A stretch of 64,000 nucleotides of DNA, taken from Hespellia sp. GTDB taxonomy: Bacteria; Bacillota; Clostridia; Lachnospirales; Lachnospiraceae. The stretch covers positions 37,561 to 101,560 of the forward strand of contig JAQVCP010000003.1 of NCBI GenBank assembly GCA_028689735.1. Direction: 5' to 3'. The notes below the pieces were generated by a model that did not search any database, was not told the DNA's origin, and saw nothing but the letters and a program-made list of their open reading frames with translations. Positions within the stretch are counted from its first letter, which is position 1. Each line of letters opens with the position of its first letter. A program made the position numbers and the translations under genes. Shown piece after piece: positions 33,074 to 54,100 of the stretch.

Positions 33074-33131
33074 CGCATCGTATCCTCCTTCAGAATCTTA
33101 TTCGCTGGCTTTCCCATTCTTTGCTTCCCTT

Positions 33132-34037: not shown

Positions 34038-34039
34038 AA

Positions 34040-34942: not shown

Positions 34943-34995
34943 CCGGACTCTCCTTGTTGTTGTATCTTGAAATCAATTTCTAGTTTTTATATGAA

Positions 34996-35018
34996 TCCGG
35001 GGTGTTACCCACCCCGGA
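34996..35018 (-). promoter_or_regulatory. perfect 9-bp intercistronic hairpin between backbone pilin and sortase genes
   Basis: TCCGGGGTG-TTACC-CACCCCGGA; no T run follows on the minus strand. Confidence 0.7.
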
Positions 35019-35060
35019 CCAATATGTATTACTTTGAGTCAAAGACTCATACTCAACTAA

Positions 35061-36620
35061 TTACTGAGTTTTTTTGCGGCTTCTGAAGTAAAGGAATGCT
35101 GCAATGATCATGATCGCACAACCACCGATTGTGAAGATTGTTGTACCGATACCACCTGTTGATGGAAGGGAAGAAAGCTTGGTATTCTTGATTTCTGTCT
35201 CTGCATTATCCTTACCTGGTACAATGTTAGTAATCGTCTTATTCGTTGTTGGGCCATCATAGGTTGCTTCATAGGTTGATGTTGCCTTACCATCTACTTC
35301 GATTTTATAACTCTTTAATGTTCCGTCTGTGTTATACTCTGCTGAAATAACAACCGGAATCTCTTTTGGATTAACAGAATATCCTTCTGGAGCTTTTGTC
35401 TCGACGAGTGTATACTCACCTGCATCCAGTCCTGTGAATGCTAACGCACCATTCTCATCTGATACTGCGGTGTAAACTTTCTTCGTTGTTTTATTTGTCA
35501 GTGTAAATGTTGCGCCTGGAAGTGAAGTTGTTTTAACAGTTTCGCCTGCTTCGTTCTCGATTTCTCTCTCTTCACCAGTCTTTAACAATTCTTTTGTAAT
35601 TTCATTCCATGTTTCTGATGAACTACCAAACAGTTTACTGTCAATACCGAATGTGTAGGTATAAGTTTTGTCATCTGTTTTCTTCGTTTCATCTGCTTTT
35701 GACGGATTGTTTGAATACTCTAATGTTGCTGTATTTGTGTTAGGATCGAAGTTGATACCTGCCTGATCATTCAGTACTGCTGAATAAGTTACATATACAG
35801 TATCGTTTCCATGAGCAAGTGCATAGTCAGAGTTAATTGTGATTTCAAAACCTGATGCTGATTTTGTAATTGTATAGCTGTCCTCCGGAAGATTTGTTGC
35901 AATACTATCCTGAGTTAATGTTAAGCCAGTGCTTAAAGCATCAGAAATTTTAACGACTACTGTTGTATATTCTTTGCTGTATGAAGGGATTGCTGTATCG
36001 ATGCGGAATTTGACTGTATCGCCGATTGCCACATCATCACCCTTATCGCCATTGCCGCCATCAACAATGGTCTTCTCGATAGAAGGAGTTGTTGATTTTG
36101 CATATGCATCATTTGTTACAAGTGTCCAGTTAGAATTAGCATCTACCGGATCTGCGCTCATTTCGCTGTCACTACCGCTTACTGTATAAGCAACACCGAG
36201 TAACATCGGATTATAAACTTCGTTAACTGTACCATTTACTAATACCATCCAATAGCCTGGGTTTAAGTTAGCTGTGAAGCTTGCAAGCCCTTCTGTGGCA
36301 GTAGTTGTCATTGACACTGTTTTTAATCCATCTTTATTTCCTTTTGCAATTGCTGTAATCTCATCTGATGTCGGTGCGAGCGGATCTGCAATTGTAACTC
36401 CGTCTACAGTAGTATATCCTGTAAAACCTGCATCATTATAGTTCGCCTTTACTACCTGATATGCCGTTACTGTTGCTGTCGCCTCTACATTGTTTACCGT
36501 TGCTTCTTTTACGTCATTTTCTGTAGGTTTTACACCTGTTGCTGCGAATGTAGTCATGCTCATTCCCAGAACCATTGCCATAGATAAAACTAAGGCTAAA
36601 ATTTTCTTTACTTTACTCAT
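35061..36620 (-). CDS. SpaA-type isopeptide-forming backbone pilin, LPSTG-anchored
   Basis: Signal peptide; SLPSTGGIGTTIFTIGGCAIMIIAAFLYFRSRKKTQ; LPGATFTLTNKTTKKVYTAVSDENGALAFTGLDAGEYTLVETKAPEGY (SpaA/Cna-B). Confidence 0.9.
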   Translation of the reverse strand: MSKVKKILALVLSMAMVLGMSMTTFAATGVKPTENDVKEATVNNVEATATVTAYQVVKANYNDAGFTGYTTVDGVTIADPLAPTSDEITAIAKGNKDGLKTVSMTTTATEGLASFTANLNPGYWMVLVNGTVNEVYNPMLLGVAYTVSGSDSEMSADPVDANSNWTLVTNDAYAKSTTPSIEKTIVDGGNGDKGDDVAIGDTVKFRIDTAIPSYSKEYTTVVVKISDALSTGLTLTQDSIATNLPEDSYTITKSASGFEITINSDYALAHGNDTVYVTYSAVLNDQAGINFDPNTNTATLEYSNNPSKADETKKTDDKTYTYTFGIDSKLFGSSSETWNEITKELLKTGEEREIENEAGETVKTTSLPGATFTLTNKTTKKVYTAVSDENGALAFTGLDAGEYTLVETKAPEGYSVNPKEIPVVISAEYNTDGTLKSYKIEVDGKATSTYEATYDGPTTNKTITNIVPGKDNAETEIKNTKLSSLPSTGGIGTTIFTIGGCAIMIIAAFLYFRSRKKTQ

Positions 36621-36743
36621 TCTTAATCTCCTTTTCTTTTTTGCGTTTTTGGTTGTAAAGTTTTTTGCTTGTTTATAATTTCTTTTTGCTACTTGTTACC
36701 TCTTTTGCGGTGCTTAAGGCCGCTGAAATGTCTTTTCATATTC

Positions 36744-39700
36744 TTATTTTTTCAGCACCCCCTCGTGTTTCTTGTTTCTATATAGAATTAGTGCTGCTGC
36801 CATCATAAGCAGTATGCCGCTAATCATATACCAGTAAATGCCAATACCGCCGGAATTTGGCAAATCATACAACGGAGTATTTTCAAATACATAGGTATAA
36901 ATTCCGTTTGCATCTCCTGAAGTGCCTTCAATTGTTTTGTCTCCACTTGTAATCGTTGGCTTCGCACCTTTGTAGGAAATTACAATATTCCATTCCTCTG
37001 TGCTCAAAGCATATCCTCCAGGTGCTTTTATTTCTTTTAGTGTATAAGTGTCAGCTTCAATTTCTGACGAAGAAACAGCCTTGTCTTTCAAGCTCCAGCT
37101 AATTACACCATTTTGATCAGACTTGCCGGTATAAACAAGTGTTTTACCATCTGTTCCTTTTTTAGTCTGTGCAGTCAATGTAAATTCGGCATTTTCAAGA
37201 TAAATAGGTGTCTGGCTAGATGTTGAACTCTCTTTTAATATCTGCCAATTGTCCACTTTTCCATTTGTAAACTTCGCAACGCCTAATGTTCCGCCATCCT
37301 TTGCGCCATATGCGTAGCTATCGGAAATAACATCTACACCTTCTTGATTCATCTTATTGCCAAGTTTAAATGTTGCAACTAAGTGGTCTGATGATAAACT
37401 GTTTTCTGTATTTGTCTCATTCTCACCAGCTCCAATAGATGCACTCAACAGTGTATATCCATCACTCTTGCTCTCTGAAACCCGATACTCACCACGCTCC
37501 AAGCCAATTAACTCAGCTAATCCTTCTTCTGATAATCCAACTTCCGTTCCTGCGTCTGTATTTGCCGGGACAACAATTGATACCGTCTTTAACAGTGAAT
37601 AAGTCCCATCGCCATTCTTCTTATCTACATCAAAGTTAAATTTCTGTTCTGTTTTGGATGTTTGCTGTAACTTCTTTGTAATCTGAATAGCACCAGAAAT
37701 TACTTTTACAGTGTAAGTGCCTGTTGCCTCAGCTAAGTTGTTCGACACATTTTTATCATCTTCACCCGCGTGATGTATCTTCCCATCAGAAGTTGTTGTG
37801 TTGTGGTTACTATCAGCTGTTGGCTCACCTGCGTTGTAAGTTACTTTCAGATAATACTTTGTATTAACATCTGTTGTAACGCCTGCCATGTCAACTGCAT
37901 TGGTACAAGCTTCGTCAGAATACCATTTGAAGATAAACTTGTCTAAAGTCACTCCTTCATACTTATCTAACCATATTCGAACATCTGCCATCTGACTCTG
38001 AATCGTTGTCGTTCCAGTCTTTGTTGTATTGGTCGGTACACTGTCGCCTTTATAGATTGTAACCTCGTAAGGTTTTACCTCTAATGTGGCTTTTACGTTA
38101 ACCGTCGGCTTCTCGAATGGAATGGATACACCATCCACCGAAACTCCCGAACCATCTCCATTGGTTGTAACCGCGTTCCCACCAATGTAATCCGCCTTGG
38201 CCTTAACCTGGAAAGTCTTGCTCCATCCTGGTGAATCATCTGTCTTTGTATATAATGTCTGATTTGTCCAAATTACATATTGACGATCATCTGAGTCGGT
38301 ATGCAGTGTACCGCCTGCTGCTGCAACGCTTACTTCATCTGCTACAAATCTCGGATCAATATAATCCTTAACAATAGCATTCTTAACGGGCACGCCATTG
38401 ATGGACTGGATGATACTCTTAAAAATACCAGTCAATGAATCAGCATCATCTGCAGTGTATGCATATTTGCTTCCGTTTTCTGCCTCTGATGCAGCCTTCT
38501 TTAATGTATTCTTTGCATTTTCCAGATTCACGTCTTGACTTACACCTAATCCCACAGAAACAGTCATTACTGTACGATTGCCCTTCTCACTAGAAGAATC
38601 TTTAATAGCAGATGCTGCATTTTCTATATCGCTAAGATCACATTTATTCGGACAACCATCTGTCAGCAGAATTACAAACTGCCTTCTCGACTGATCACTT
38701 TGATTTTTCAGCATCGTCTGTGCCGCATCCAAACCTGCTTTTTGGTTTGTTCCACTGGTTGTCTCAATGTTTGTAATTTTGCTATTGAAATCAGCTAAAT
38801 TGTTTCCCTTACCAATTTCCTGCAAATCAAAATCCTGTGAAGCTGCTTCCGAGAAAGTCACCAGTCCAACTCTGCTCTCCGGTGATGTTTCTGCCAAATC
38901 AGCGGCAAATTGCTTCGCTGCTTTGTCAAGATAGTAAAGTCTGTCATGATCATCCTTAGCTGTGTAGAAAGTGTAATCTGTATATGAATTTAAAGTACCC
39001 TTCGCACCATCTTTATATATAGCTTTAGCTACATAATCCCAACAGGAATCATCAACGTATTTCCACTGACTGTCTTCATAATAAACCCGCATAACCGTAG
39101 CCGATGCACCAGGTGCCACATAATAGTACACCTTGTTCTTATCAAGCTTTTCGATTGTACCTGTGTCATAATAGGTCAATCCGCTCCGAAAATTCATGGA
39201 ACAGGACTTATCGAAAACTAATACCACATCTACCGGTTCTACTATCGTGCTTGTCGCATTGGAGCTTGCATTCAGTGTGATATTGTATGTTCTTTCATTC
39301 CAATCGACCACCTGTGCTGTCTTGCCGGTTTCAACTGTTGAAGCCAGATTCGTATAATAATTGGAAAAAGCAAACGTCGCTGAATCTTTTTCCTTTACAC
39401 TCGTTGACACCTTATCATCCTGAACCGTTCCACCGATTACCTTCAAATCATTTTGCAGATGGTAACCTTTCACCTCTGTACCCGATTCTTCTACTTTATA
39501 TATATAGGAATCTCCATCATTCTTTATCTTCTGATTACCATATATATAAGATCCGTTTGCCGATATCGTACCATTCGCATTTGTTGTAATCGTCCAGTTC
39601 ATGTCAGATGCTTTCAGTACTGTGCCATTTTGCGGTGCATCGCTGGTTGTCGACGTAATCTTAAACTTTAAATTTGCTTTAAGTGATTCAAATTGTGCCT

Positions 39701-42700
39701 GTGTCAAGCCCTCGACACGTTTAGTAACCTGTAATGTAAACTCTCCTTTATTTGCCGGTGGAAGTTTCTGTCCGAATCCTACGTTATCAAGGAAGTTACC
39801 ATATGTGTAGGCATTTGCAGTTGTATTATTATCGTGTGCTGTAGGTCCTGATACAAAGAAGAAACGTGACATATAGCCGGTAGGAATGTAGGCATTTGTC
39901 TCTGAATAGTTACCCCACTTCTGATCATCGTCTGTATATTCTTTTACATACACGCCATTTGCCGTCTTGAAAGCTTCGTCCTTTGCCATGAGTGCTTCTA
40001 CTTCTACCTGTGTATCAATCGGATCCCCATCGTTATTTAATCCGTTTTTTGCCAGACTTGTCGGGATGATAACAACATACATGGTATCATATTCCGGATT
40101 TTTGTCAGAAACATCTCCTCTGGCCCTATGAGACAGCCAATAGTTCAACGGTGTTCCTCTGATCGTAACAACATCCTGATATAGTGCTCCCTCTGCTTCG
40201 CAATTCAGCTCTGCAAATTGAGTTCCATCCGGTATTACCTGATCACCATACCATGCATATTGCCCAAGACTTTGACCATCATTTTTACTTACGATCTCGA
40301 TATCCCATCCATCTTCCGCATCAACATTAGTCTCATACCGTGGTTTCGAAGTAGTCTGCCATACACCGCCATTCTCTCTGTACCATTTGTTTGATGTATG
40401 GTTCCAGGAATTCTTGCGATGAAATTGCGGTGTCTCAAAACTTCCGTTCTGGAGCTGATTCCAATATGTAACATTATATTCATCTGATACTGCCGCTTCT
40501 GTCTCTGTACCCTTTGCAAATGCTTTCACTTTGTATTTCACACTGGTTTGATTTTCATCACTGTTCAGTGCTCCATCGTCAAGTGCAAGATTCAACCAGG
40601 TTCCTTTTTCATCAATATTGTAATCATCTCCGGAACGTGTTCTTGTCACTTCTTTGAAGTCACGGCCATTGACACTCTTATACCACTTGAAGTCATATGC
40701 GGCTGTGTCGGTTAAACCTGCAACCTGTAACTGACCGGAATTTATGATGTCATCCGTGATAGAGATGCTTGCGGCATTTTTATTGTAGACCATGTACAGG
40801 TCAACCGTTCTTTCCTTCTTATCTTTGCTGGTTGTAACCCATTCCGTCCATGAATCTCCGGAAGTATTTTCACTATATTGAATTTTTAGATTTTTAGTAC
40901 CATCGTTCTGATATTGCAATCTTTTGATTTGAGTTCCATCATGGGCATCCTTCTTTGCTCCAACAAAGGTATAACCCTTGATTTCTTTCTGATAAGTACT
41001 CAAATTAATCACATCATTGTTGTTTGTTGTGCCTGTTATATTCTCCTGTTCTACCAGTGACTCAGAAATTTCCTTATTCTTTGTGCCATCCCAGTAATGC
41101 ACTGTTGCAACAATCTTTCTGCTGCCTCGTGTCCAGGTGATTGTAAAAGTAGAAAAACTGTCTGTTACGAATTCTGCTTTTGTAACCTTCGTAGCATCCG
41201 TGGTTTCTACCGTAGCTTCCTGGGTATCATCGGCTACCATATCAACTACATCTTTGACCTCGCCCTTTTTGTTTTCCTCCAGGTGCATAACCGTTACATC
41301 CAGGCTTGCATCCTCGGATGAATCAACTTCCTCTGGAATCGCTTCTTGCTTGTAGTCGATGACTACTTTTACATTTCCGTTTGGTTCTACCTTGTTACCA
41401 TCTTTGTCGATAAAGCTGATATCATAAGCGAGGAAACCTGCGATGTCGTAATCTTCATTCTCTGCTTTTTCCTCCAGCTGAGTTTTTACTTTTTCATACT
41501 CATCCGCTGTACTTTCTGGTGTAATCACTTTCGCTTCTGAGGTAGCTTTGCCAGTTAATGAAATGTCTGTTGCTGCTTTCCGCTCCGGTACTGCAATTGT
41601 TGAAGCAGATGTAACATCTGACTGTGTGTCCGGTAAGATTGGAATAACCTGAAGTGTTGCTCCCTCTGGAATAATTCCTTTCTGATCTGCACTTACAGTT
41701 ACGGTTACATCATCATTTTCATATTTAAGTGAATCTGTTGCTTTTGCAGGCTCATCTGTTGCTGCATTCTTACCTGCTGTATTTGAACCACCCTCCGTAA
41801 CAGTTTCATCTGTTGCCGGCTCTTCCGATGGCTGCTCTGTCAAATAACATCCGTAGATTGTGGAATATCTTCCTTCCATCTGAATCTTCTGTGCTGTGCC
41901 ATCTTCATTCAATGTGATCTCGGATAAATCATAATCGTTATCGATTGTGTCGATGCTCTGACCTGCGTTCTGAAGTTCTTCCACCTTGTCAGATCTCTGA
42001 GTGATTCCAACAATCTGTGCTTCGGCGTTACCTGCCGATGAGTTCGCTTCATTATAATAGAAAACTGTTGATTTCTTTGTATCGCCAATCTGAAAATCTT
42101 TCTGTTCAAATGTAAGCTTGATTTCTTTTCCAGGTTCTACTTGCTTGCCATTCACCTTGAAGCTTACATTATATAAGAAATAGCTTCCAAGAACTTTACC
42201 TTCTTCTAAGGATTTTTCCATCAGTGTTTTGACTGTATCTTCTGTCTCTTTCTGAGCTGCTGTTACTTCCATCGTAACTTCGGAAGTCTTTGCTGTGAAT
42301 GTTCCTTCCGGAACGTTCGCTGTAACTGTACTGATCACATTTCCATCAGTATCTTTAACATCCGCCTTAAGCTCTACTGCTTCCTGCTGGGTTGTTGTTT
42401 TGTCTTTATCTTCCGTCGTGTAGATGGTTTCGTCTTTCTTGCCGCCATCTGTTACGGTCTCATTTTCCGCTGATTCATTTTCAGTCGGCTCACTTACTGC
42501 TGGCTCCTGTGGCTTATCTTCTGTAATGTAGCAGCCGTAGATCGTGCAGCGTCTTCCTTCCATCTGAATCTTCTGTGCTGTGCCATCCTCGTTCAATGTG
42601 ATTTCTGACAAATCGTAATCGTCAATATGCTCTGTGCTCTCTCCTGCATTTTGAAGCTGTTCCATCTTGTCGGACTTCTGTGTGATTCCAACGATCTCTG

Positions 42701-43406
42701 CTTCGGCATTGCCTGCCGGTGAGTTTGCCTCATTGTAATAGAAGGTTGTTGCTTTCTTTGTATCACCAATCTGGAAATTCTTCTGTTCAAATGTGATGCT
42801 GATTTCCCGGCCCGGCTCCACCTGCTCTCCGTTCACCTTGAAGCTTACATTATATAGGAAGTAACTTCCAAGGACTTTATCCTCTGCTAAGGATTTTTCC
42901 ATCAGTGCTTTGACTGCATCTGTTGTCTCTGTCTGAACCGCCGTAACCTCCATTGTCACTTCAGAAGTATTTGCTGCAAATGTCCCTTCCGGGATATTCG
43001 CTGTGACTGTGCAGATTGCATTTCCATCGGCATCAACGAGTACATTTCCATCAGCATCCTTGATGTCTTCCTTAAGCTCCATAGCTTCCTGATGCGGTGA
43101 CTCCTCTGTCACTGTCGGCTCGCTATGTACCTGAGCTTCTGCTGCCGTGTTATCTGTCGCTGCTTCATCTGTTGTTGCCGCTTCTGTCTCCGGTGTTGTC
43201 TCCGCTGTACCCGTACCTGTTGTTTCCGCTGTTCCAGCCTGTTCACCCGTAACGGTTGTCTCGTCCTGTGCTTCCTTGCCGGCTCCTTCACTGCTAATCT
43301 CATCTGCGTTAAAACTATCTATTAGAAGTGATGGGACGCTTCCGCCAAGCACGAGCACCATGCAAAGCACAAACGCTATGATTCTTCTCTTCCTACTACT
43401 TTTCAT
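36744..43406 (-). CDS. giant (2220 aa) vWFA-containing LPXTG-type adhesin, probable pilus tip protein
   Basis: VDVVLVFDKSCSMNF (MIDAS DxSxS), FVILLTDGCPNK; Cna-B-like APGGYALSTEEW; C-term YDLPNSGGIGIYWYMISGILLMMAAALILYRNKKHEG. Confidence 0.9.
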   Translation of the reverse strand: MKSSRKRRIIAFVLCMVLVLGGSVPSLLIDSFNADEISSEGAGKEAQDETTVTGEQAGTAETTGTGTAETTPETEAATTDEAATDNTAAEAQVHSEPTVTEESPHQEAMELKEDIKDADGNVLVDADGNAICTVTANIPEGTFAANTSEVTMEVTAVQTETTDAVKALMEKSLAEDKVLGSYFLYNVSFKVNGEQVEPGREISITFEQKNFQIGDTKKATTFYYNEANSPAGNAEAEIVGITQKSDKMEQLQNAGESTEHIDDYDLSEITLNEDGTAQKIQMEGRRCTIYGCYITEDKPQEPAVSEPTENESAENETVTDGGKKDETIYTTEDKDKTTTQQEAVELKADVKDTDGNVISTVTANVPEGTFTAKTSEVTMEVTAAQKETEDTVKTLMEKSLEEGKVLGSYFLYNVSFKVNGKQVEPGKEIKLTFEQKDFQIGDTKKSTVFYYNEANSSAGNAEAQIVGITQRSDKVEELQNAGQSIDTIDNDYDLSEITLNEDGTAQKIQMEGRYSTIYGCYLTEQPSEEPATDETVTEGGSNTAGKNAATDEPAKATDSLKYENDDVTVTVSADQKGIIPEGATLQVIPILPDTQSDVTSASTIAVPERKAATDISLTGKATSEAKVITPESTADEYEKVKTQLEEKAENEDYDIAGFLAYDISFIDKDGNKVEPNGNVKVVIDYKQEAIPEEVDSSEDASLDVTVMHLEENKKGEVKDVVDMVADDTQEATVETTDATKVTKAEFVTDSFSTFTITWTRGSRKIVATVHYWDGTKNKEISESLVEQENITGTTNNNDVINLSTYQKEIKGYTFVGAKKDAHDGTQIKRLQYQNDGTKNLKIQYSENTSGDSWTEWVTTSKDKKERTVDLYMVYNKNAASISITDDIINSGQLQVAGLTDTAAYDFKWYKSVNGRDFKEVTRTRSGDDYNIDEKGTWLNLALDDGALNSDENQTSVKYKVKAFAKGTETEAAVSDEYNVTYWNQLQNGSFETPQFHRKNSWNHTSNKWYRENGGVWQTTSKPRYETNVDAEDGWDIEIVSKNDGQSLGQYAWYGDQVIPDGTQFAELNCEAEGALYQDVVTIRGTPLNYWLSHRARGDVSDKNPEYDTMYVVIIPTSLAKNGLNNDGDPIDTQVEVEALMAKDEAFKTANGVYVKEYTDDDQKWGNYSETNAYIPTGYMSRFFFVSGPTAHDNNTTANAYTYGNFLDNVGFGQKLPPANKGEFTLQVTKRVEGLTQAQFESLKANLKFKITSTTSDAPQNGTVLKASDMNWTITTNANGTISANGSYIYGNQKIKNDGDSYIYKVEESGTEVKGYHLQNDLKVIGGTVQDDKVSTSVKEKDSATFAFSNYYTNLASTVETGKTAQVVDWNERTYNITLNASSNATSTIVEPVDVVLVFDKSCSMNFRSGLTYYDTGTIEKLDKNKVYYYVAPGASATVMRVYYEDSQWKYVDDSCWDYVAKAIYKDGAKGTLNSYTDYTFYTAKDDHDRLYYLDKAAKQFAADLAETSPESRVGLVTFSEAASQDFDLQEIGKGNNLADFNSKITNIETTSGTNQKAGLDAAQTMLKNQSDQSRRQFVILLTDGCPNKCDLSDIENAASAIKDSSSEKGNRTVMTVSVGLGVSQDVNLENAKNTLKKAASEAENGSKYAYTADDADSLTGIFKSIIQSINGVPVKNAIVKDYIDPRFVADEVSVAAAGGTLHTDSDDRQYVIWTNQTLYTKTDDSPGWSKTFQVKAKADYIGGNAVTTNGDGSGVSVDGVSIPFEKPTVNVKATLEVKPYEVTIYKGDSVPTNTTKTGTTTIQSQMADVRIWLDKYEGVTLDKFIFKWYSDEACTNAVDMAGVTTDVNTKYYLKVTYNAGEPTADSNHNTTTSDGKIHHAGEDDKNVSNNLAEATGTYTVKVISGAIQITKKLQQTSKTEQKFNFDVDKKNGDGTYSLLKTVSIVVPANTDAGTEVGLSEEGLAELIGLERGEYRVSESKSDGYTLLSASIGAGENETNTENSLSSDHLVATFKLGNKMNQEGVDVISDSYAYGAKDGGTLGVAKFTNGKVDNWQILKESSTSSQTPIYLENAEFTLTAQTKKGTDGKTLVYTGKSDQNGVISWSLKDKAVSSSEIEADTYTLKEIKAPGGYALSTEEWNIVISYKGAKPTITSGDKTIEGTSGDANGIYTYVFENTPLYDLPNSGGIGIYWYMISGILLMMAAALILYRNKKHEGVLKK
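41826..43095 (-). repeat. tandem ~190-200-aa intragenic duplication in the N-terminus of the giant adhesin
   Basis: Copy 1 (~42520-43095) EAMELKEDIKDADGN...KIQMEGRRCTIYGCYITE; copy 2 (~41826-42392) EAVELKADVKDTDGN...KIQMEGRYSTIYGCYLTE. Confidence 0.9.
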
Positions 43407-44327: not shown

Positions 44328-45347
44328 CTAATTCTTTTTATTCTTCTGGTCCTGAAGTAACCGCAGAATTTCTTCCTGTGCTAAGCCTGTCGCTTCTGCA
44401 ACATCCGAAACAGCCATGCCTTTTTCGTGAAGTCTTAATGCGATTTCAATTCTTTCCAACTCTGCCCCCTTCTCAAGCCCTTCTTCAAGTCCCTTCTCAA
44501 GTCCTTCTTCGAGCCCCTTCTCAAGTCCTTCTTCGAGCCCCTCTTCCCTCGCATTCTTCGCAACAATATCCATATGTTTCTTCTTATCATATTCCGTAAG
44601 AATCAACTGTCTCACCTCGTTTCTATTCTTCAGAAGGAATTCTTTCAGTACATTATGATCGATGCAGTAAGCACTTGCAGCGTCAATTGCATCTTCCAGA
44701 GCATAACCTTTGCGCTGAAATATCCGAATCTGCTCGATGAATGTTGCATATTCCTCCAATAATTTGCACTGGTTCATTAACACCTTGTTATGTCCAAGAT
44801 TGATATTCAGCATAACCGCTGTGAACTCCATACAGCCACCTGGATTTTCAAAAGCATCGGATAATTTAAGCTCCACGCTGTCCTTAACATCATCTCCACC
44901 ATTATAGAACACAATATATTTTGGGGTGGGAATCTTAATCAATTTCTTTCCATAAAGATCTGCCTGGCTGACTGCCAGAAATCCCTGCAGCACACTTGCA
45001 AAATAGATCAGACCACGCAGCGGCATGTTGGGGTTAAAGGTGGACTGATGTTCGTAGAGATTCAGGTAATTGTCAATTAGGAACGAACAGTCATTTTTCA
45101 TGCCCATGTAGACTGCATCTTCCATGGTCGTGATCATCAGTTCATCCGGATTTGTATAGTTCGAGTGATTGACTGCGTTATACAACTCCAGCAAAGCCTT
45201 CTTATCACTAAAAAGCTTGATAAACAACTGGTCTTTGTGCTTACGGTTAACACGAAATATCCTGCACATAAAATTTGTCAGCCACGTCCTCTTTACCTTA
45301 ACTACCTTGCCTTCATAAATCATCTCAAGTACTTGTTTCTGCTTCAT
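44328..45347 (-). CDS. Rpn family / PD-(D/E)XK nuclease transposase-like protein, copy A
   Basis: NDCSFLIDNYLNLYEHQSTFNPNMPLRGLIYFASVLQGF...YIVFYNGG; C-term GLEEGLEK repeats. Start MKQKQVLEM behind GGAGGAAG. Confidence 0.8.
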   Translation of the reverse strand: MKQKQVLEMIYEGKVVKVKRTWLTNFMCRIFRVNRKHKDQLFIKLFSDKKALLELYNAVNHSNYTNPDELMITTMEDAVYMGMKNDCSFLIDNYLNLYEHQSTFNPNMPLRGLIYFASVLQGFLAVSQADLYGKKLIKIPTPKYIVFYNGGDDVKDSVELKLSDAFENPGGCMEFTAVMLNINLGHNKVLMNQCKLLEEYATFIEQIRIFQRKGYALEDAIDAASAYCIDHNVLKEFLLKNRNEVRQLILTEYDKKKHMDIVAKNAREEGLEEGLEKGLEEGLEKGLEEGLEKGAELERIEIALRLHEKGMAVSDVAEATGLAQEEILRLLQDQKNKKN

Positions 45348-45472
45348 GCTTTCTTCCTCCATTATAATTGAACGGTGAAGTAAACACAACAGAAACCACG
45401 TAAGATTCCCACTGTATTTGCTTCAAAAATAAAAGGGTAACTTCGGCGATATGCCGGAAAAAACTTAGATCC

Positions 45473-45662: not shown

Positions 45663-46634
45663 CTAATTCTTTTTATCCTTCTGGTCCTGAAGCAACCGCA
45701 GAATTTCTTCCTGTGCTAAGCCTGTCGCTTCTGCAATATCCGAAACAGCCATGCCTTTTTCGTGAAGTCTTAATGCGATTTCAATTCTTTCCAACTCTGC
45801 CCCCTTCTCAAGTCCTTCTTCGAGCCCCTCTTCCCTCGCATTCTTCGCAACAATATCCATATGTTTCTTCTTATCATATTCCGTAAGAATCAACTGCCTC
45901 ACCTCGTTTCTATTCTTCAGGAGAAATTCTTTCAGTACATTATGATCGATGCAGTAAGCACTCGCAGCGTCAATTGCTTCTTCCAGCGCATAGCCTTTGC
46001 GTTGAAAGATACGAATCTGTTCGATAAATGTTGCATATTCCTCCAATAATTTACACTGGTTCATTAACCTCTTATTATGCCCAAGATTGATATTCAGCAT
46101 AACCGCTGTGAATTCCATACAGCCATCTGGATTTTCAAAGGCATCGGATAATTTAAGCTCTACGCTGTCCTTAATATCATCTCCCCCATTATAGAACACA
46201 ATATATTTTGGGGTGGGAATCTTAATCAATTTCTTCCCATAAAGATCTGCCTGGCTGACTGCCAGAAATCCCTGCAGCACACTTGCAAAATAGATCAGAC
46301 CACGCAGCGGCATGTTCGGATTAAAGGTAGACTGATGTTCGTAGAGATTCAGGTAATTGCCAATCAGGAACGAACAATCATTTTTCATGCCCATGTAGAC
46401 TGCATCTTCCAGGGTCGTGATCATCAGTTCATCTGGATTTGTATAGCTCGAGTGATTGACTGCGTTATACAACTCTAGCAAAGCCTTCTTATCACTAAAA
46501 AGCTTGATAAACAACTGGTCTTTATGCTTATGGTTAACACGAAAAATCCTGCGCATAAAATTTGTCAGCCACGTCCTCTTTACCTTAATTACCTTGCCTT
46601 CATAAATCATCTCAAGTACTTGTTTCTGCTTCAT
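45663..46634 (-). CDS. Rpn family / PD-(D/E)XK nuclease transposase-like protein, copy B
   Basis: Near-identical to copy A by eye; 16 aa shorter, with fewer GLEEGLEK units. Confidence 0.8.
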   Translation of the reverse strand: MKQKQVLEMIYEGKVIKVKRTWLTNFMRRIFRVNHKHKDQLFIKLFSDKKALLELYNAVNHSSYTNPDELMITTLEDAVYMGMKNDCSFLIGNYLNLYEHQSTFNPNMPLRGLIYFASVLQGFLAVSQADLYGKKLIKIPTPKYIVFYNGGDDIKDSVELKLSDAFENPDGCMEFTAVMLNINLGHNKRLMNQCKLLEEYATFIEQIRIFQRKGYALEEAIDAASAYCIDHNVLKEFLLKNRNEVRQLILTEYDKKKHMDIVAKNAREEGLEEGLEKGAELERIEIALRLHEKGMAVSDIAEATGLAQEEILRLLQDQKDKKN

Positions 46635-46758
46635 GCTTTCTTCCTCCATTATAATTGAACGGTGAAGTAAACACAACAGAAACCACGTAAGATTCCCACT
46701 GTATTTGCTTCAAAAATAAAAGGGTAACTTCGGCGATATGCCGGAAAAATTTAGATCC

Positions 46759-47539: not shown

Positions 47540-48784
47540 CTACCATATGGTATCTTTGTCATCAAACTGTATTTTGGAATCCTCACGCTCTACATCCGCA
47601 ATGGAAGATACGTAGAATTCAAGATACTGCGACCATGTTTTATGATCCCTGCAGAAATACTTGGTGATGCGATTATAAATAATCTGGCAGCTCTCTTTGT
47701 CTATTCCTGTAAGCAGCGCAAGAAATTGTGAAGCACTGTATTTTGTATAGGAATCACCTCTCCGAAGACAATTCTTAATTGTATTATTCAGTTCTCCAGA
47801 TAGCAGCTCCAACTTCTCGCCATTCTCTAAGGGCTGGCCTTTTCCGTTCGTCAGACTGCACATCATCAAAAATGCAGACTGACCATTCCGTTCCATCAGT
47901 CGTGCCATCAGACGATAGTTGTCCCGGAAACTGGGAAGATTACAGTAATATGCCCCCAGCCGGTCTTCTGTTTCCTTAAGATTACTCTTGATGTTCCGAA
48001 GTTCCTGCGGTTTAAAATTCATATGGCTACTCATGAGTTGAAACTGTTCCATCATCTTTTCTGACGGATTAATTCCAAGCTCCTCGAAAAACAGCTTCGC
48101 TGTGCATTCGTATTCCTTCATGGCTTCTTTGTATTTTTTCAGTGCAATAAAGCATTCTATGCGAACTGTCTGCCATTCATCGAAAGGATAAAGCTCACAG
48201 GCAGGCTTACAAACTTGCAGAGTTTCTTCATATTGTCCGTGTTCCATCTGCCACTTGCATACTTCCTTCAGTATCTGTGTATACTGATTCTTATAATGCA
48301 CAGCTTCCACTAATACCCAGTCTTCGCCTGATAGATCCGAGAGGAAGTCTCCACTGTATATACCACAGGCTTGCTTTAAAAGATTAATTTTCTTTTCTTC
48401 GTCTTTTTCTGTCTCGGACTCATTGACCAGCGTTTCAAATAGATTGGTATCCACCTCAGTCTCCATCGGTGCATTCCACTGATAGATTCCTTTTCTTATC
48501 GTAATGTAATCATTCTGAGGAAGTCCTGCGTCACTCAACATCTTTTTGAGTCTGTAAACCGTGACTCTCAGATTGTTCGCAACATCTGCCAATTCTTCCC
48601 TCCCATAAAGGGCTTCCAGAATACGCTCCCGTGCGATGCCATTGTTTCCAAAATAAAGTAAAAGTTGCAGAAGTTTCATTGCTTTCGTTGTATTATTCTT
48701 CCCAAAAGATATAGGTTTATCCCCATATGTAATCGTAAAGCGCCCAAAAAAATAAACCTTCAATACTTGTGATTTTTCGCCCAT
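47540..48784 (-). CDS. SARP-type transcriptional regulator (winged-helix + BTAD)
   Basis: LKVYFFGRFTITYGDKPISFGKNNTTKAMKLLQLLLYFGNNGIARERILEALYGREELADVANNLRVTVYRLKKML, then BTAD helices. Confidence 0.88.
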   Translation of the reverse strand: MGEKSQVLKVYFFGRFTITYGDKPISFGKNNTTKAMKLLQLLLYFGNNGIARERILEALYGREELADVANNLRVTVYRLKKMLSDAGLPQNDYITIRKGIYQWNAPMETEVDTNLFETLVNESETEKDEEKKINLLKQACGIYSGDFLSDLSGEDWVLVEAVHYKNQYTQILKEVCKWQMEHGQYEETLQVCKPACELYPFDEWQTVRIECFIALKKYKEAMKEYECTAKLFFEELGINPSEKMMEQFQLMSSHMNFKPQELRNIKSNLKETEDRLGAYYCNLPSFRDNYRLMARLMERNGQSAFLMMCSLTNGKGQPLENGEKLELLSGELNNTIKNCLRRGDSYTKYSASQFLALLTGIDKESCQIIYNRITKYFCRDHKTWSQYLEFYVSSIADVEREDSKIQFDDKDTIW

Positions 48785-48885: not shown

Positions 48886-48928
48886 ACATACCACGCTAAT
48901 ACTCACCTATTTATCACTATATTGCTGC

Positions 48929-48980
48929 TAAACCACTTGCTTCTGTGTTGATGCTTAACCACTTACTTCTGTGTTGATGC
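48929..48980. repeat. two tandem 26-bp direct repeats between divergent promoters
   Basis: TAAACCACTTGCTTCTGTGTTGATGC / TTAACCACTTACTTCTGTGTTGATGC, contiguous. Confidence 0.9.
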
Positions 48981-48993
48981 GCAACTATTTTGG

Positions 48994-49022
48994 TTAACAA
49001 GAATCTAAGCATGTGATATACT
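48994..49022 (+). promoter_or_regulatory. T4P-like operon promoter (sigma-A-like)
   Basis: TTAACA - 17 nt - TATACT, upstream of the ORF at 49060 with SD AAAGGAG. Confidence 0.7.
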
Positions 49023-49059: not shown

Positions 49060-50019
49060 ATGATAAAACTCACACATCATTTTCACTATATTATTGTGCC
49101 CTTTTTTTTGGTCCTGTTCCTTTCTCTTATTATCTCCGGCTGTTCCTCCAGTTCCAATGCCGCAAAGGAGAACTCGGAGAAGAAGTCTGCACCGCCGCGT
49201 TCCAGCGCCGCTAAGGTACTCGTCCCTGAAGCTCCTGCCACAACAGTTTATGGGAATGATATTGTTTCTATAGATGTCTCTAACGTTTCCCAGGGATATA
49301 TCATGGTGAATTACAGTGGTTTCAATGACAAGGTCAAACTTCAGATTGAGACACCGGATGCGGTTGATTACACTTATCTGATCACGGATCTGAATCAGTA
49401 TGCCGTCTATCCGCTTAGCGGGGGCAATGGCAGTTATACACTTTCTATTCTGGAATCTGTTGATAGAGACAGTGATATGTACTCTATCGCATTTACACAG
49501 GCTTTTGATGTTACTCTTGCAGATGAGTTTCTACCTTATCTATATCCAAACCACTATGTCAATTTTACTGCTGATTCTGCTTTGGTCTCAAAAGGGGAAG
49601 AACTTGCTTCGGATTGTTATTCGGATCTGGATGTAGTAACCAACATCTATGACTTTGTTATCAAGAATATTACATATGACGAGGATAAGGCCAAAGATGT
49701 CCCCTATGGATACACCCCGGATCCCGATGAGACGTTGGGCAGCAAAACCGGCATCTGCTTTGATTATGCTTCCCTGATGTCGGGGATGCTCCGTTCCCAG
49801 AATGTCCCTACGAAACTGGAGGTCGGATATTCCGGAGATGTCTACCATGCCTGGATTAGTTGTTATGTGGATGAAGTCGGCTGGGTCGACAATATTATTG
49901 AATTCGATGGTAAGAACTGGTCACTTATGGATCCAACACTCGCTGCCGGTAATAAAAAATCAGCTGTTAAGAAATATATTGGAGATGGAAGCAAATATAC
50001 TGTAAAATATCATTATTGA
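49060..50019 (+). CDS. lipoprotein with transglutaminase-like domain
   Basis: SLIISGCSSSS lipobox; NITYDEDKAKDVPYGYTPDPDETLGSKTGICFDYASLMSGMLRSQNVPTKLEVGYSGDVYHAWISCYVDEVGWVDNIIEFDGKNWSLMDPT (Cys-His-Asp). Confidence 0.88.
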   Translation: MIKLTHHFHYIIVPFFLVLFLSLIISGCSSSSNAAKENSEKKSAPPRSSAAKVLVPEAPATTVYGNDIVSIDVSNVSQGYIMVNYSGFNDKVKLQIETPDAVDYTYLITDLNQYAVYPLSGGNGSYTLSILESVDRDSDMYSIAFTQAFDVTLADEFLPYLYPNHYVNFTADSALVSKGEELASDCYSDLDVVTNIYDFVIKNITYDEDKAKDVPYGYTPDPDETLGSKTGICFDYASLMSGMLRSQNVPTKLEVGYSGDVYHAWISCYVDEVGWVDNIIEFDGKNWSLMDPTLAAGNKKSAVKKYIGDGSKYTVKYHY

Positions 50020-50039
50020 ACAAGAAAGGACAAAAGTCT

Positions 50040-51074
50040 ATGAAACCACTTAGTAATTTGGAGACGGCGGCCTTCTGCAACCAGATGGCCATGATTTTAA
50101 AGTCCGGAATTTCTGCGTTGGAAGGTATTTCGATTCTGCTCGAGGATGCGGAAAGTCCGGATGAAAACGAGCTTCTGACACAGATATATGACGAGATGCT
50201 TGAGACAGGTTTTCTTGCCCCTTCTCTTAAAAAGACCGGGGTATACCCTGCATATTTGGTGCAGATGACACAGATTGGAGAGGAGACCGGGACACTCGAT
50301 GAGGTGATGGACGCGCTGGACTCCTATTACTCCCGGGAAGAATCCATCAAAAAAAGCATCCACAGTGCGCTGACCTATCCCTCTATCATGATTGTCATGA
50401 TGCTATTGGTTATTCTGGTACTGATCACCAAGGTCATGCCGATTTTTAATCAGGTATTTTTACAGCTCGGCAGAGAGATGACCGGATTTTCCAAGGGCGT
50501 CCTGAATCTGGGAACACTATTTTCCCGGTACTCTCTTGTATTTATCTTTATTGCTATTATCATTGTTTTATCACTTGTCCTTTTATTTAAGACCAAAAAA
50601 GGACATGATATACTCATCAATTTTTTATATAAGATGAGATTTTCTCAAAATATTTACGATAAGATTTCCGCCAGCCGTTTTGCCAGTGTCATGAATCTGA
50701 CTCTGCGAAGCGGAATGAGTGTGGAACGTGGCCTGGAGTTCTCCCAGAGCTTGATCGATAACCGTTATTTTTTAGATAAGATCAAGTCCTGCCAGGATAT
50801 GATTGAGAATGGAGAAGATTTCTCCCAGGCATTGCAGAGCAGTAAGATCTTTACCGGTGTGTATGCACGGATGATTTCTATTTCCAGCAGAGCCGGTACT
50901 ATGGATGAGACTATGGGCAAGATTGCTGTCCGGTACGAAGCCGATGTTGACACGCTGACCACGCAACTCATCTCGTCTCTGGAGCCGACCATCGTTATTA
51001 TCTTATCGGTCGTTGTCGGAGTGATTCTGTTCTCTGTGATGCTGCCGCTTCTTGGAATCATGTCAGGTCTATAA
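50040..51074 (+). CDS. type II secretion system F / PilC-like inner membrane protein
   Basis: QIGEETGTLDEVMDALDSYYSREESIKKSIHSALTYPSIMIVMMLLVILVLITKVMPIFNQVF; repeated GTMDETMGKIAVRYEADVD...LEPTIVIILSVVVGVILFSVMLPL. Confidence 0.9.
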   Translation: MKPLSNLETAAFCNQMAMILKSGISALEGISILLEDAESPDENELLTQIYDEMLETGFLAPSLKKTGVYPAYLVQMTQIGEETGTLDEVMDALDSYYSREESIKKSIHSALTYPSIMIVMMLLVILVLITKVMPIFNQVFLQLGREMTGFSKGVLNLGTLFSRYSLVFIFIAIIIVLSLVLLFKTKKGHDILINFLYKMRFSQNIYDKISASRFASVMNLTLRSGMSVERGLEFSQSLIDNRYFLDKIKSCQDMIENGEDFSQALQSSKIFTGVYARMISISSRAGTMDETMGKIAVRYEADVDTLTTQLISSLEPTIVIILSVVVGVILFSVMLPLLGIMSGL

Positions 51075-51199
51075 GATTTCTGGACTATTTGCCGTTGAGT
51101 GTTCAATCGGATTACCCGGCATTTCCAGAAATCCTTCGGAAACTGACGGATAACTTGTTTGCAGGTAACATTTTATGGAATTGAAGAAAGGTGAGTTGG

Positions 51200-51523
51200 A
51201 TGAAACGTTTTTATAAAGGAAGAAAAGAACATAATCTTCGCAATGCCATCATTTCCGTCTTATTGTTCTGCGCCGTATTTAGCTTGTTCTTTTATGGTAC
51301 AAATACTGTATCAGCAAAGACAGATGCACAGCAGGCACAGAGCCTCAACGAGGCAATCCACAGGGGAATCACTCACTGTTATGCAGTGGAGGGGCGCTAC
51401 CCTGAGAGCCTGGATTATCTGAAGAAGGAATATGGTATTTCCTATGATGAGGACAAATATTTCGTGGACTATCAGGTCCTTGGCACCAATCTGATGCCCG
51501 ATGTAACGATTATCAATAAATAG
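51200..51523 (+). CDS. single-TM pseudopilin-like protein
   Basis: NAIISVLLFCAVFSLFFYG TM; AIHRGITHCYAVEGRYPESLDYLKKEYG resembles a pseudopilin post-helix region. Confidence 0.55.
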   Translation: MKRFYKGRKEHNLRNAIISVLLFCAVFSLFFYGTNTVSAKTDAQQAQSLNEAIHRGITHCYAVEGRYPESLDYLKKEYGISYDEDKYFVDYQVLGTNLMPDVTIINK

Positions 51524-51535
51524 AGGAGGCATAGA

Positions 51536-52042
51536 TTGATGCAGAGCAAAAACGAGAAAAAACACGTGATAGATTTTCTGTTTCCAATTGCATTACTGTT
51601 TGTCTTTGCGGCATCTTCTTTTGTCGTCATTCTGCTTGCTGCTAATGTCTACAGCAAGACGACTGCCGCTTCCCAGGAGCATTATGAGACGCGTACACCA
51701 CTCTCTTATGTGGCTGAGAAGATTCGACAGGCAGATGAGGGCGGCGGCGTTGCCGTTGGAGATTTTAATGGATTGGATGCACTGATTCTTACCCAGAAAT
51801 ATGGAGGGCAGAAATTCATTACATATATCTACGCATACGAGGGAGAACTCATGGAACTTTTCATTCAGGATGGCGTGAAGGCAAGTCCCGCTTCCGGCAC
51901 CGGAATTATGGAAGTGGAGGCATTTCATGTTGGGGAGACAAGGCCTGGTATCTTCCAGTTTTCCTGCACATCTGCGGAGGGCAGTACCTTAACTTCTTAT
52001 GTGTCAGTTACCAGCCAAGGAGGTGCCGCCGATGAATTCTAA
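51536..52042 (+). CDS. DUF4860-like single-TM protein
   Basis: DFLFPIALLFVFAASSFVVILLAANVYSKTTAASQEHYETRTPLSYVAEKIRQAD; located within the T4P-like operon. Confidence 0.6.
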   Translation: MMQSKNEKKHVIDFLFPIALLFVFAASSFVVILLAANVYSKTTAASQEHYETRTPLSYVAEKIRQADEGGGVAVGDFNGLDALILTQKYGGQKFITYIYAYEGELMELFIQDGVKASPASGTGIMEVEAFHVGETRPGIFQFSCTSAEGSTLTSYVSVTSQGGAADEF

Positions 52043-52484
52043 TCCTTCCAAACGTTCCAGTCTGTTTCTGCTGGAGCTTATGATCGCGATTTTATTTTTC
52101 TGTCTCTGCTCTGCAATCTGTGTCCGGCTGTTCGTCCAGTCCCACGTGATCAGCAGCGACACACAGAATCTGAATATGGCAATGAATCATACCACCAATC
52201 TAGCTGAGATTTTCCGTGGAGTGGATAATTACCGTGATGCATTAAAAGAACAGTTTCCAAACGGAATTCTTTCGGAAGACAGAAATACATTTACACTTTA
52301 TTATGATTCTGATTGGAAGGAATGTTCCATGGAAGATGTAGAATATGCAGTGAGTATTTCTGTAACCGAGCGGGGAGACGGCATAACCGATGCCGACTTT
52401 CATGCAATTTCGCTGGATAGCAAGGATTCTATTTACCAATTTGAGACATCGAAGTATGTGAAGGAGGGAACGGAACATGAATAA
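52032..52484 (+). CDS. pseudopilin-like protein (S|LFLLE motif)
   Basis: MNSNPSKRSSLFLLELMIAILFFCLCSAICVRLF; Glu at +5 as in type IV pilins; start overlaps upstream gene. Confidence 0.6.
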   Translation: MNSNPSKRSSLFLLELMIAILFFCLCSAICVRLFVQSHVISSDTQNLNMAMNHTTNLAEIFRGVDNYRDALKEQFPNGILSEDRNTFTLYYDSDWKECSMEDVEYAVSISVTERGDGITDADFHAISLDSKDSIYQFETSKYVKEGTEHE

Positions 52485-52938
52485 AGAACGTGGTTCTTAT
52501 CCGGTCATACATATCGGAACATCTTTTCTTCTGGTCATCTTCATTATTCTCTGTCTGGTGACGTTTGCGGTTCTTTCGCTCTCCAGTGCACTGCGTGATC
52601 AGAATTATTCAGAAAAAGAGGCAGTGCGTACCACTGCCTACTACGCTGCCAGCGGCACGGCCCAGGAAAAGCTCGGTGAGATTGTAGAATCATTCCAAGA
52701 TAACAGTCTTGATAAAGTGGCGGATATTACTGTCACGGCCGACGACGATGATCAGAATATTACCGAGGTATTTTATACGGTTCCTGTTGATACGGATCAG
52801 ACTCTGGAGGTCACCGTGCAGCTAAGTGACCTTGGAAATCTTGACAGCGGTATCTATCAGATTTCCGGCTGGAAAAAGATCACATCCAGCGACTGGAATG
52901 CAAGTAGTACACTCCCGGTTCTTGACAGCAACAAGTAA
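52477..52938 (+). CDS. single-TM minor-pilin-like protein (PilX/TadE-like topology)
   Basis: HIGTSFLLVIFIILCLVTFAVLSLSSALRDQNYSEKEAVRTTAYYAASGTAQEKL. Confidence 0.5.
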   Translation: MNKERGSYPVIHIGTSFLLVIFIILCLVTFAVLSLSSALRDQNYSEKEAVRTTAYYAASGTAQEKLGEIVESFQDNSLDKVADITVTADDDDQNITEVFYTVPVDTDQTLEVTVQLSDLGNLDSGIYQISGWKKITSSDWNASSTLPVLDSNK

Positions 52939-53047
52939 AAAAGGAAATGAACGCTTAGAAAGAAGACGCGAAACGGATTCCAAATATCCGCTTTACATAG
53001 GTTTGGTAACTACAGAGAAAGAACAGACACAAAAGAGAGGTTTTAAT

Positions 53048-54100
53048 ATGAATTTAACACAGTTATTGGAAAAAGCAGTGCGCGAGCATGCCTCAGACAT
53101 TTTCATCGTTGCCGGGCTGCCTGCGTCATACCGGAAGAATGGAGTACTGGTTCATGTTGATGAAAACAGACTTATGCCTGACGAGACTGAGGATTTTTTA
53201 AAGGAAATCTACCAGCTGGCCAAAGAGCGGAATATGGATCTGCTGTATCAGGAGGGAGACGACGATTTCTCTTTTGCAATCCCGGGTCTGTCACGTTTTC
53301 GTGTCAGTGCTTACAAGCAGCGTGGAACATTATCTGCGGTCGTCCGCGTCATTACATTTGAGCTGCCCAGCTACAGGGAGCTTGGAATCACTGAGCAGAT
53401 TATCCATCTTGGAAACCTCTCCAAAGGTCTTGTACTTGTGACCGGACCTGCTGGAAGCGGCAAGTCCACAACGCTGGCCTGCGTGGTCAACCATATCAAC
53501 CAGAATTTCGAAAAACACATCATCACGCTGGAAGATCCCATCGAATACCTTCACAGCCATAAAAAATCCATCGTCAGCCAGCGGGAGATCAACGTGGACA
53601 CGGACAGCTATGTCACCGCATTACGTGCTTCCCTGCGCCAAAGTCCGGACGTTATCCTTCTTGGGGAGATGCGTGATTATGAGACCATTGATGTGGCGAT
53701 GACTGCTGCTGAGACAGGGCATCTCATCATTTCTACCTTGCATACTCTGGGTGCCGCCAATACGATTGACCGTATCATCGATGTGTTTCCGGCAAATCAG
53801 CAGCAGATTGCAGTCCAGCTCTCGATGGTCCTGCAGGCTGTCGTCTCACAGCAACTGGTTCCTGCAATTGACGGAGGCGTGATCCCGGTCTTTGAGATCA
53901 TGACTATCACACCAGCCATCCGCAATATGATCCGTGAAAATAAAATACCCCAGATTGATGGAATCGTATATTCTTCCAACCGCGAGGATATGGTTTCTAT
54001 GGATTTCAACCTGTTAAAGCTAGTGAATGAAAACAAAATCACTCCGGAGACTGCCATCGCCTATGCGACCAACCCTGAGATGCTAAAGAAAAAACTGTAA
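53048..54100 (+). CDS. PilT-like type IV pilus retraction ATPase
   Basis: VLVTGPAGSGKSTTLACVVNHIN (Walker A), HIITLEDPIEYLH, RQSPDVILLGEMRDYETIDVAMTAAETGHLIISTLHT; start MNLTQLLEKAVREHASDIF. Confidence 0.92.
   Translation: MNLTQLLEKAVREHASDIFIVAGLPASYRKNGVLVHVDENRLMPDETEDFLKEIYQLAKERNMDLLYQEGDDDFSFAIPGLSRFRVSAYKQRGTLSAVVRVITFELPSYRELGITEQIIHLGNLSKGLVLVTGPAGSGKSTTLACVVNHINQNFEKHIITLEDPIEYLHSHKKSIVSQREINVDTDSYVTALRASLRQSPDVILLGEMRDYETIDVAMTAAETGHLIISTLHTLGAANTIDRIIDVFPANQQQIAVQLSMVLQAVVSQQLVPAIDGGVIPVFEIMTITPAIRNMIRENKIPQIDGIVYSSNREDMVSMDFNLLKLVNENKITPETAIAYATNPEMLKKKL

Follow-up and report, generated by a model that had tools for sequence, protein, structure and literature searches.

A conserved operon with a PilT-type ATPase, a PilC-type platform and pilin-derived proteins in Lachnospiraceae: a probable reduced relative of type IV pili

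Four core proteins are thought to be present in every type IV filament machine, namely a platform, the pilins, an extension ATPase and a prepilin peptidase (PMC10191384), and PilB is present in all families (PMC6668835). In the MSHA pilus of Vibrio cholerae, PilT promotes extension as well as retraction (PMC9815625), so that a PilT can take part in outward work, and passages on the Caulobacter Tad pilus describe a single CpaF that drives both movements (PMC11300603). A 2011 survey of Gram-positive type IV pili includes pil operons with pilT, and its passages that match our key terms hold no PilB-less one (PMC3244431). Here, we analyse a 64,000-nucleotide stretch of a Hespellia sp. contig (JAQVCP010000003.1; hereafter the window, in whose numbering unprefixed positions are given), where a seven-gene operon encodes a transglutaminase-like lipoprotein (Tgase), a PilC-type platform, four small proteins with a single transmembrane (TM) helix (S1, a DUF4860 protein, S3 and S4) and a PilT-type ATPase. 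Our literature search has found no description of this operon; DUF4860 occurs in no paper searched, no paper combines three of the terms pseudopilin, Lachnospiraceae, PilT and transglutaminase, and the papers on "lacking PilB" and similar phrases seem, in the passages retrieved, to concern mutants or other systems.

In our reading, the product of the operon is probably a conserved machine that belongs to the type IV filament superfamily and has undergone secondary reduction: a PilT-worked, membrane-anchored, short pseudopilus on PilC, with a thiol enzyme outside. An earlier note on this DNA had described seven co-directional, tightly spaced genes at 49060-54100; all seven are present (Table 1), with corrected starts for PilC, S1 and PilT: an alternative TTG start of PilC at 50016 overlaps the Tgase gene, and the PilT start given as 52826 in the mechanical list of open reading frames is artefactual. 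The identities proposed in the note for the Tgase lipoprotein, PilC and the PilT-like protein are borne out by matches to Transglut_core, T2SSF and TIGR01420, and its view that the operon is a reduced assembly with a PilT motor, matching no canonical type IV pilus (T4P), type II secretion system (T2SS) or Com system, is supported. The ATPase belongs with the PilT/PilU family, with a TIGR01420 score over the cut-off, Walker A and B motifs and a motif of the AIRNLIRE type, and its score with the ComGA profile, 141 bits, is not over the cut-off of 300. PilB, PilD and PilM/N/O are absent from the 64-kb window, as had been stated, and S1, S3 and S4 have no match in the family-profile search.

The operon is found in about a third of the sampled gut-type genera of Lachnospiraceae, the window's own family, where DUF4860 occurs in 86 of 250 genomes, nearly always in one copy; in a sample of 391 genomes from the class Clostridia, 42 have it (nine of them from the same family), with about a dozen other families represented. 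Its bearers include gut species that can be cultured. The comparison of 60 loci from other genera has revealed that the core PilC-S1-DUF4860-S3-S4 keeps a fixed order in every one of them, which argues against a chance arrangement and answers the earlier proposal to look for neighbourhood conservation across the family; the Tgase gene is present in 56 of these loci and pilT in 48, and none has PilB, PilD, PilM or PilO beside the operon (PilM and PilO having been searched with the versions from contig C54 of the window's own genome). The predicted active sites are conserved as well. The Tgase residues C233, H263 and D291, the Cys-His-Asp triad of a transglutaminase/thiol-protease-fold enzyme, are invariant in 57 of 57 aligned sequences, which supports the crosslinking/protease-fold enzyme proposed in the note, and the N-terminal Cys28 is aligned in 48 of the 57; in PilT, the Walker A motif, the Walker B glutamate, H232 and the pair I295-R296 of the AIRNxIR motif are invariant or nearly so.

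That PilB, PilD and the cleavage signals have been lost has a reductive look, as would be expected of a functionless, decaying relic of a lost T4P locus. A relic is very improbable, however, given that 60 loci from different genera keep six to seven genes intact and in one order and that catalytic and structural residues are invariant, and we have rejected it on the grounds of this conservation. Against a relic stand also the PilT and PilC trees, in which the operon forms stand as lineages of their own that extend across several families (the trees are quick ones, with support from the Shimodaira-Hasegawa-like approximate likelihood ratio test only): 39 operon PilTs, 25 of them from the family and 14 from other families, fall together on one side of a branch (support 97), apart from the T4P-locus PilTs, and the T4P-locus PilCs form one group (99), with the operon PilCs, including that of the window, outside it. 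In two loci, L173 and L174, PilT goes instead with the T4P-locus PilTs of L175 and L177, and where an operon-bearing genome encodes a PilT outside the operon, this PilT mostly falls among those of T4P loci (99).

For the comparison of the four small proteins, profiles were made from the window and the 60 loci of the family (L050-L109) alone, and two loci with PilB, PilT and PilC in other families of Clostridia (L175 and L177) have proved informative. The S1 profile matches the canonical prepilin of L177 (E 1.3e-14), the DUF4860 profile matches canonical prepilins of L177 (6e-16) and L175 (3e-13), the S3 profile matches the canonical prepilin of L175 (1.6e-7), and the S4 profile matches a GspK/PilX-like protein of L175 (1.5e-8); the DUF4860 homologues of L175, L177 and L172 are canonical prepilins, and S4 has been aligned with its homologues from L173-L175. 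In these alignments, the signals G/FTLIE, G/FSVVE, G/FTLVE and G/FSLIE of L175 and L177 line up with the beginning of the TM helix in the window proteins. The signals form a series, from canonical (L175 and L177, with PilB) through part-canonical (L161, L164, L166, L167, L169 and L172-L174, where S3 is canonical in most and DUF4860 in some) to decayed (the window); a canonical G/F...E occurs in the S3 homologues of L164, L166, L167, L169, L172, L173 and L175. Different parts of the signal are retained in each subunit, and it has therefore decayed differently in each: S3 keeps Glu5 (E15) in 61 of 61 sequences, with a variable residue -1 (position 10; Ser in 28, Gly in 12, Arg in 6, Asn in 3), S4 keeps Gly -1 (G14) in 61 of 61 and has no Glu5, DUF4860 has Asp at +5 in 42 of 61, and S1 has neither Gly -1 nor Glu5. 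The complete signal, Gly -1 with Glu5, is present in none of the four window proteins and in about 12 of the 61 S3 sequences.

The AlphaFold2 (AF2) model of DUF4860 consists of a 62-residue helix and an eight-strand sheet (pLDDT 93), and its best Foldseek matches by probability are the type IV-like pilin TTHA1219 and the pseudopilin complex XcpV/XcpW, at E-values of about 0.1-0.2; the S1 model consists of a long helix and a small sheet (pLDDT 91), and several type IV pilins are among its top Foldseek rows, with no significant E-value. Sequence searches of solved structures have given nothing significant with the DUF4860 and S1 profiles; with S3 they have given the geopilin domain 1 protein 7tgg (E 0.0013) and, after it, other pilins. 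The pilin-like character ascribed to the four proteins in the note is thus borne out, both by the canonical prepilins of related loci to which they are homologous and by the model of DUF4860; these contradict the possibility, also raised there, that the small frames are unrelated to pilins. To judge from these alignments, S1, DUF4860, S3 and S4 descend from prepilins, and the operon arose from a PilB-PilT-PilC-prepilin type of locus.

The full-genome search for PilB and PilD that had been proposed has a divided outcome: neither is encoded in the window, but both are encoded in the genome from which it comes (G000; 3.69 Mb, 174 contigs, 97% complete). Contig C54 of this genome carries a canonical T4P locus (L012, with pilin, PilD, PilC, PilM, a PilO-like protein, PilB and PilT) and all three of its N_methyl prepilins, so that the absence of PilB and PilD is true of the window and not of the genome; contig C160 carries a Tad locus (L013), and contig C97 a third, shorter T2SSE-family ATPase (L014) beside genes that seem related to conjugation. 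The pilT of the T4P locus (L012:11230-12429, G000:C54) is broken by an in-frame TAG into 137 and 252 aa, which could be real or an assembly error, and the pilT of the operon is intact. After the T4P motor genes lies a giant open frame of 3857 aa (L012 from about 12350, G000:C54:48535), which starts with a canonical prepilin signal, NKG/FTFVEL; similarly large prepilin-led frames occur in other genera (e.g. 4540 aa in G026 and 3039 aa in G015).

With full T4P and Tad loci in the same genome, the operon might be an accessory module of one of them, adding to it a platform, minor pilins and a motor for retraction, with PilB and PilD, or CpaF and TadV, supplied from the other locus. This alternative has been weighed in 71 operon-positive genomes, one per genus (except G036, which shares the window's genus) and all listed at 90% completeness or more, where a T2SSE match over 380 bits was taken as PilB. 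PilT is present over its curated cut-off in all 71. The presence of PilB in 32 favours the module, as does the finding that, in most of the PilB-less genomes checked, a CpaF-like ATPase lies near A24 peptidases. PilB is absent, however, from the other 39, among them two single-contig genomes (G085, G232) and two near-closed ones (G138, 7 contigs; G102, 5 contigs). N_methyl prepilins are present in 32 of 32 PilB-positive genomes vs 1 of 39 PilB-less ones (G214), and A24_N peptidases, the bifunctional PilD type, in 26 of 32 vs 2 of 39 (G214, G223). The earlier note had allowed that a complete T4P locus elsewhere might use these genes as accessory duplicates; such a locus does exist on C54, but as a general explanation the duplicate fails and has been rejected, because PilB is missing from 39 of the 71 genomes and 38 of these 39 are also without an N_methyl prepilin. 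A Tad system brings pilins and a platform pair of its own, and to our knowledge PilC and PilT are not Tad components; membership of a Tad system has been rejected, the ATPase and platform families being different. We regard the accessory module as quite unlikely.

In 80 operon-negative genomes, PilT and PilB go together, and 37 of these genomes are PilB-less (an ambiguous PilB fragment in G045 being counted as PilB). Among PilB-less genomes, PilT is found in 39 of 39 that have the operon vs 2 of 37 that lack it (Fisher 1e-19, in a test that treats genomes as independent, which is only roughly true, with PilB called by different profiles in the two sets), and the two operon-negative PilTs (L116, L117) are both truncated, at 287 and 314 aa. 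From these profile matches, PilC is assigned as the platform and, in 39 of the 71 genomes, PilT as the only T4P-type ATPase; nearly all of the 39 have no dedicated bifunctional prepilin peptidase, and each of the four subunits appears to have lost part or all of its cleavage/assembly signal. In six PilB-less genomes (G221, G031, G208, G037, G041, G080), the operon is without pilT and the single PilT, encoded elsewhere, belongs to the T4P-locus group, a hint that the operon can be served by a PilT of the canonical retraction type. Every one of the 71 genomes has A24 peptidases of one kind or another; in at least 17 PilB-less ones (G028, G031, G037, G041, G049, G056, G079, G080, G081, G095, G096, G103, G153, G168, G208, G221, G230) they are found only within about 10 kb of a Tad-type ATPase, as positions compared by eye indicate.

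Several observations weigh against a reduced, self-contained machine. The canonical T4P parts of the window's own genome could be shared with it, and in PilB-less genomes with assignable ATPase matches a Tad CpaF coexists with the operon and could act in trans. The invariant Gly -1 of S4, and the 12 of 61 S3 sequences with both Gly -1 and Glu5, make cleavage by a Tad-type A24 peptidase conceivable, and some A24 peptidases of about 240 aa, in a few of the PilB-less genomes, are not assignable to Tad (e.g. L197 in G232). The support from Foldseek is modest (E about 0.1 and TM-score about 0.37 for DUF4860; not significant for S1). On balance, we lean slightly towards a machine derived from type IV filaments that has only a PilT-type ATPase, PilC and four uncut pilin-fold proteins, without extension motor or prepilin peptidase. 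It would be a device of the membrane that PilT drives and that does not extend, common across gut Clostridia and linked to a thiol enzyme outside the cell.

In such a device, the uncut subunits would retain their charged N-termini in the cytoplasm and so stay anchored, forming a short stump on PilC that would resemble a minor-pilin priming/tip complex rather than a long filament. DUF4860 may have a role roughly like that of GspJ/ComGF, S3 like GspI and S4 like GspK/PilX, and S1 may be the former main subunit. With ATP hydrolysis by PilT, PilC and the stump would be pulled or rotated in cycles where membrane and wall meet, and the extracellular Tgase-fold lipoprotein may process or crosslink a substrate or a surface partner. 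Work in the envelope or in secretion is possible, at somewhat less than even chances.

DNA uptake by this machine is less probable than that, and we hold it to be unlikely. It would make the operon a competence-like pseudopilus of monoderm gut bacteria, where retraction by PilT pulls DNA to ComEC; the gene set minus PilT does resemble ComGB and ComGC-GG, but Com pili have an extension ATPase, ComGA, and pilins that are cut, and no com gene has been noticed among the shared flanking genes, which were read by eye only. The one contextual hint comes from the pilT copies outside the operon, which lie at a conserved lepA-hemW region, usually in the order lepA-hemW-(sigK)-(HD-GYP)-pilT-yifB-dprA: yifB/comM and dprA are nearby in 14 of 18 loci (L111-L118, L120, L122-L125, L128), in L110 lepA-hemW alone is present, and L119, L126 and L127 lack all of these neighbours (the 18 loci are L110-L128 minus the T4P locus L121; L116 and L117 are from operon-negative genomes). 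Since yifB-dprA and lepA-hemW are housekeeping neighbours in Clostridia, this context is weak evidence for DNA uptake.

The earlier note had also placed the operon under apparent SARP control. A SARP/BTAD-type regulator does adjoin the operon in divergent orientation; SARP-profile matches occur in 19 of the 60 loci from other genera, and a flanking cluster of SARP-type regulators in 12 loci, at a median of 202 bp from the operon. The direct repeats upstream, a candidate operator, have 17 of 18 matches at period 26 vs a shuffle maximum of 15. L099 has a 26-bp repeat of different sequence before the operon (15 of 18 vs a shuffle maximum of 14), and in the other loci tested no upstream repeat is clearly over shuffles; because L099 alone among them has a comparable repeat, control by the regulator is only weakly suggested. 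The number of promoter-like sites in the region is not above that of shuffles. Conserved flanking genes other than the SARP regulator have given no functional hint that was followed.

Table 1. Positions of the operon genes and of the features upstream of them in the window
Feature	Position	Strand	Remarks
SARP/BTAD-type transcriptional regulator	47540-48784	-	BTAD 4.4e-16, Trans_reg_C 2.8e-7; divergent from operon
Two 26-nt direct repeats, 81% alike	48917-48968	.	Candidate operator for SARP regulator
Promoter-like TTAACA-17-TATACT, extended -10 TG	48994-49022	+	38 nt before Tgase start; consensus match only
Transglutaminase-like (thiol) lipoprotein (Tgase)	49060-50019	+	PF01841 Transglut_core 3e-17; predicted triad C233-H263-D291
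PilC/GspF membrane platform	50040-51074	+	PF00482 T2SSF 2.5e-41; start corrected
S1, pilin-derived single-TM protein	51200-51523	+	Start corrected; invariant Y..G.YP...Y motif; prepilin signal lost
DUF4860 pilin-fold protein	51539-52042	+	PF16152 3.1e-30; Asp at Glu5 position, Lys at -1
S3, pilin-derived protein	52032-52484	+	Glu5 (E15) invariant; residue -1 variable (S/G/R/N)
S4, GspK/PilX-like pilin-derived protein	52477-52938	+	Gly -1 (G14) invariant; without Glu5
PilT-family hexameric ATPase	53048-54100	+	T2SSE 5.5e-47; TIGR01420 PilT 410 bits vs cut-off 319; start corrected

Elsewhere in the window, a sortase-type pilus/adhesin island at 32072-43406 holds two sortase-like genes (of which 33132-34037 matches PF04203), an LPXTG backbone pilin and a 2220-aa VWA/SpaA adhesin. 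Two near-identical adjacent paralogues at 44328-45389 and 45663-46676 (353 and 337 aa) have no Pfam match and are reminiscent of PD-(D/E)XK transposase-type proteins, and an NlpC/P60 protein at 23480-25837 has a long TDKKDDTSTDKKEDGS-type repeat. A defence system has been considered and rejected, PADLOC having given generic AAA-type matches only.

Set against the four-protein core of type IV filament machines, the operon has the platform, PilC/GspF, in 60 of 60 loci; an extension ATPase of the PilB/GspE/ComGA kind is encoded with the operon in none of the 60 loci and is absent genome-wide from 39 of 71 genomes, and a dedicated prepilin peptidase, A24_N PilD, is absent from 37 of the 39 PilB-less genomes, where the other A24 peptidases are mostly Tad-linked. 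With the type IVa pilus (T4aP) the operon shares the PilC platform, the PilT motor with its AIRNxIR motif, pilin-fold subunits and descent from a PilB-PilT-PilC-prepilin locus as in L175 and L177, but it has no PilB or PilD beside it, nor a PilM or PilO matching those of C54, its subunits in the window have no complete prepilin signal, and the Tgase lipoprotein is a standing member. The Com pilus of monoderms (ComGA-GG) likewise has one platform, one ATPase and a handful of small pilins in a single operon, with no PilM/N/O beside them; here, however, the ATPase is of the PilT type and not of the ComGA/PilB type, there is no ComC peptidase and, in the window, no complete cleavage signal, and the Tgase is added. 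The T2SS pseudopilus (GspE-F, GspG-K) is short, as that of the operon would be, and its GspI/J/K tip set is resembled by S3, DUF4860 and S4 in signal and fold, not by family match; unlike the T2SS, the operon has no GspE, GspO or GspC/L/M/D, and its host is a monoderm. As in the Tad system, one ATPase serves the operon, but the families of ATPase and platform differ and the window's genome has a separate Tad locus, and the MSHA pilus, where PilT also works outward, differs in having a dedicated extension ATPase. An operon without two of the four supposedly universal parts, in dozens of genera, would make it directly testable what PilT and PilC do alone, whether PilT can push, can only pull or turns the platform, and whether any work requires that pilins be cut.

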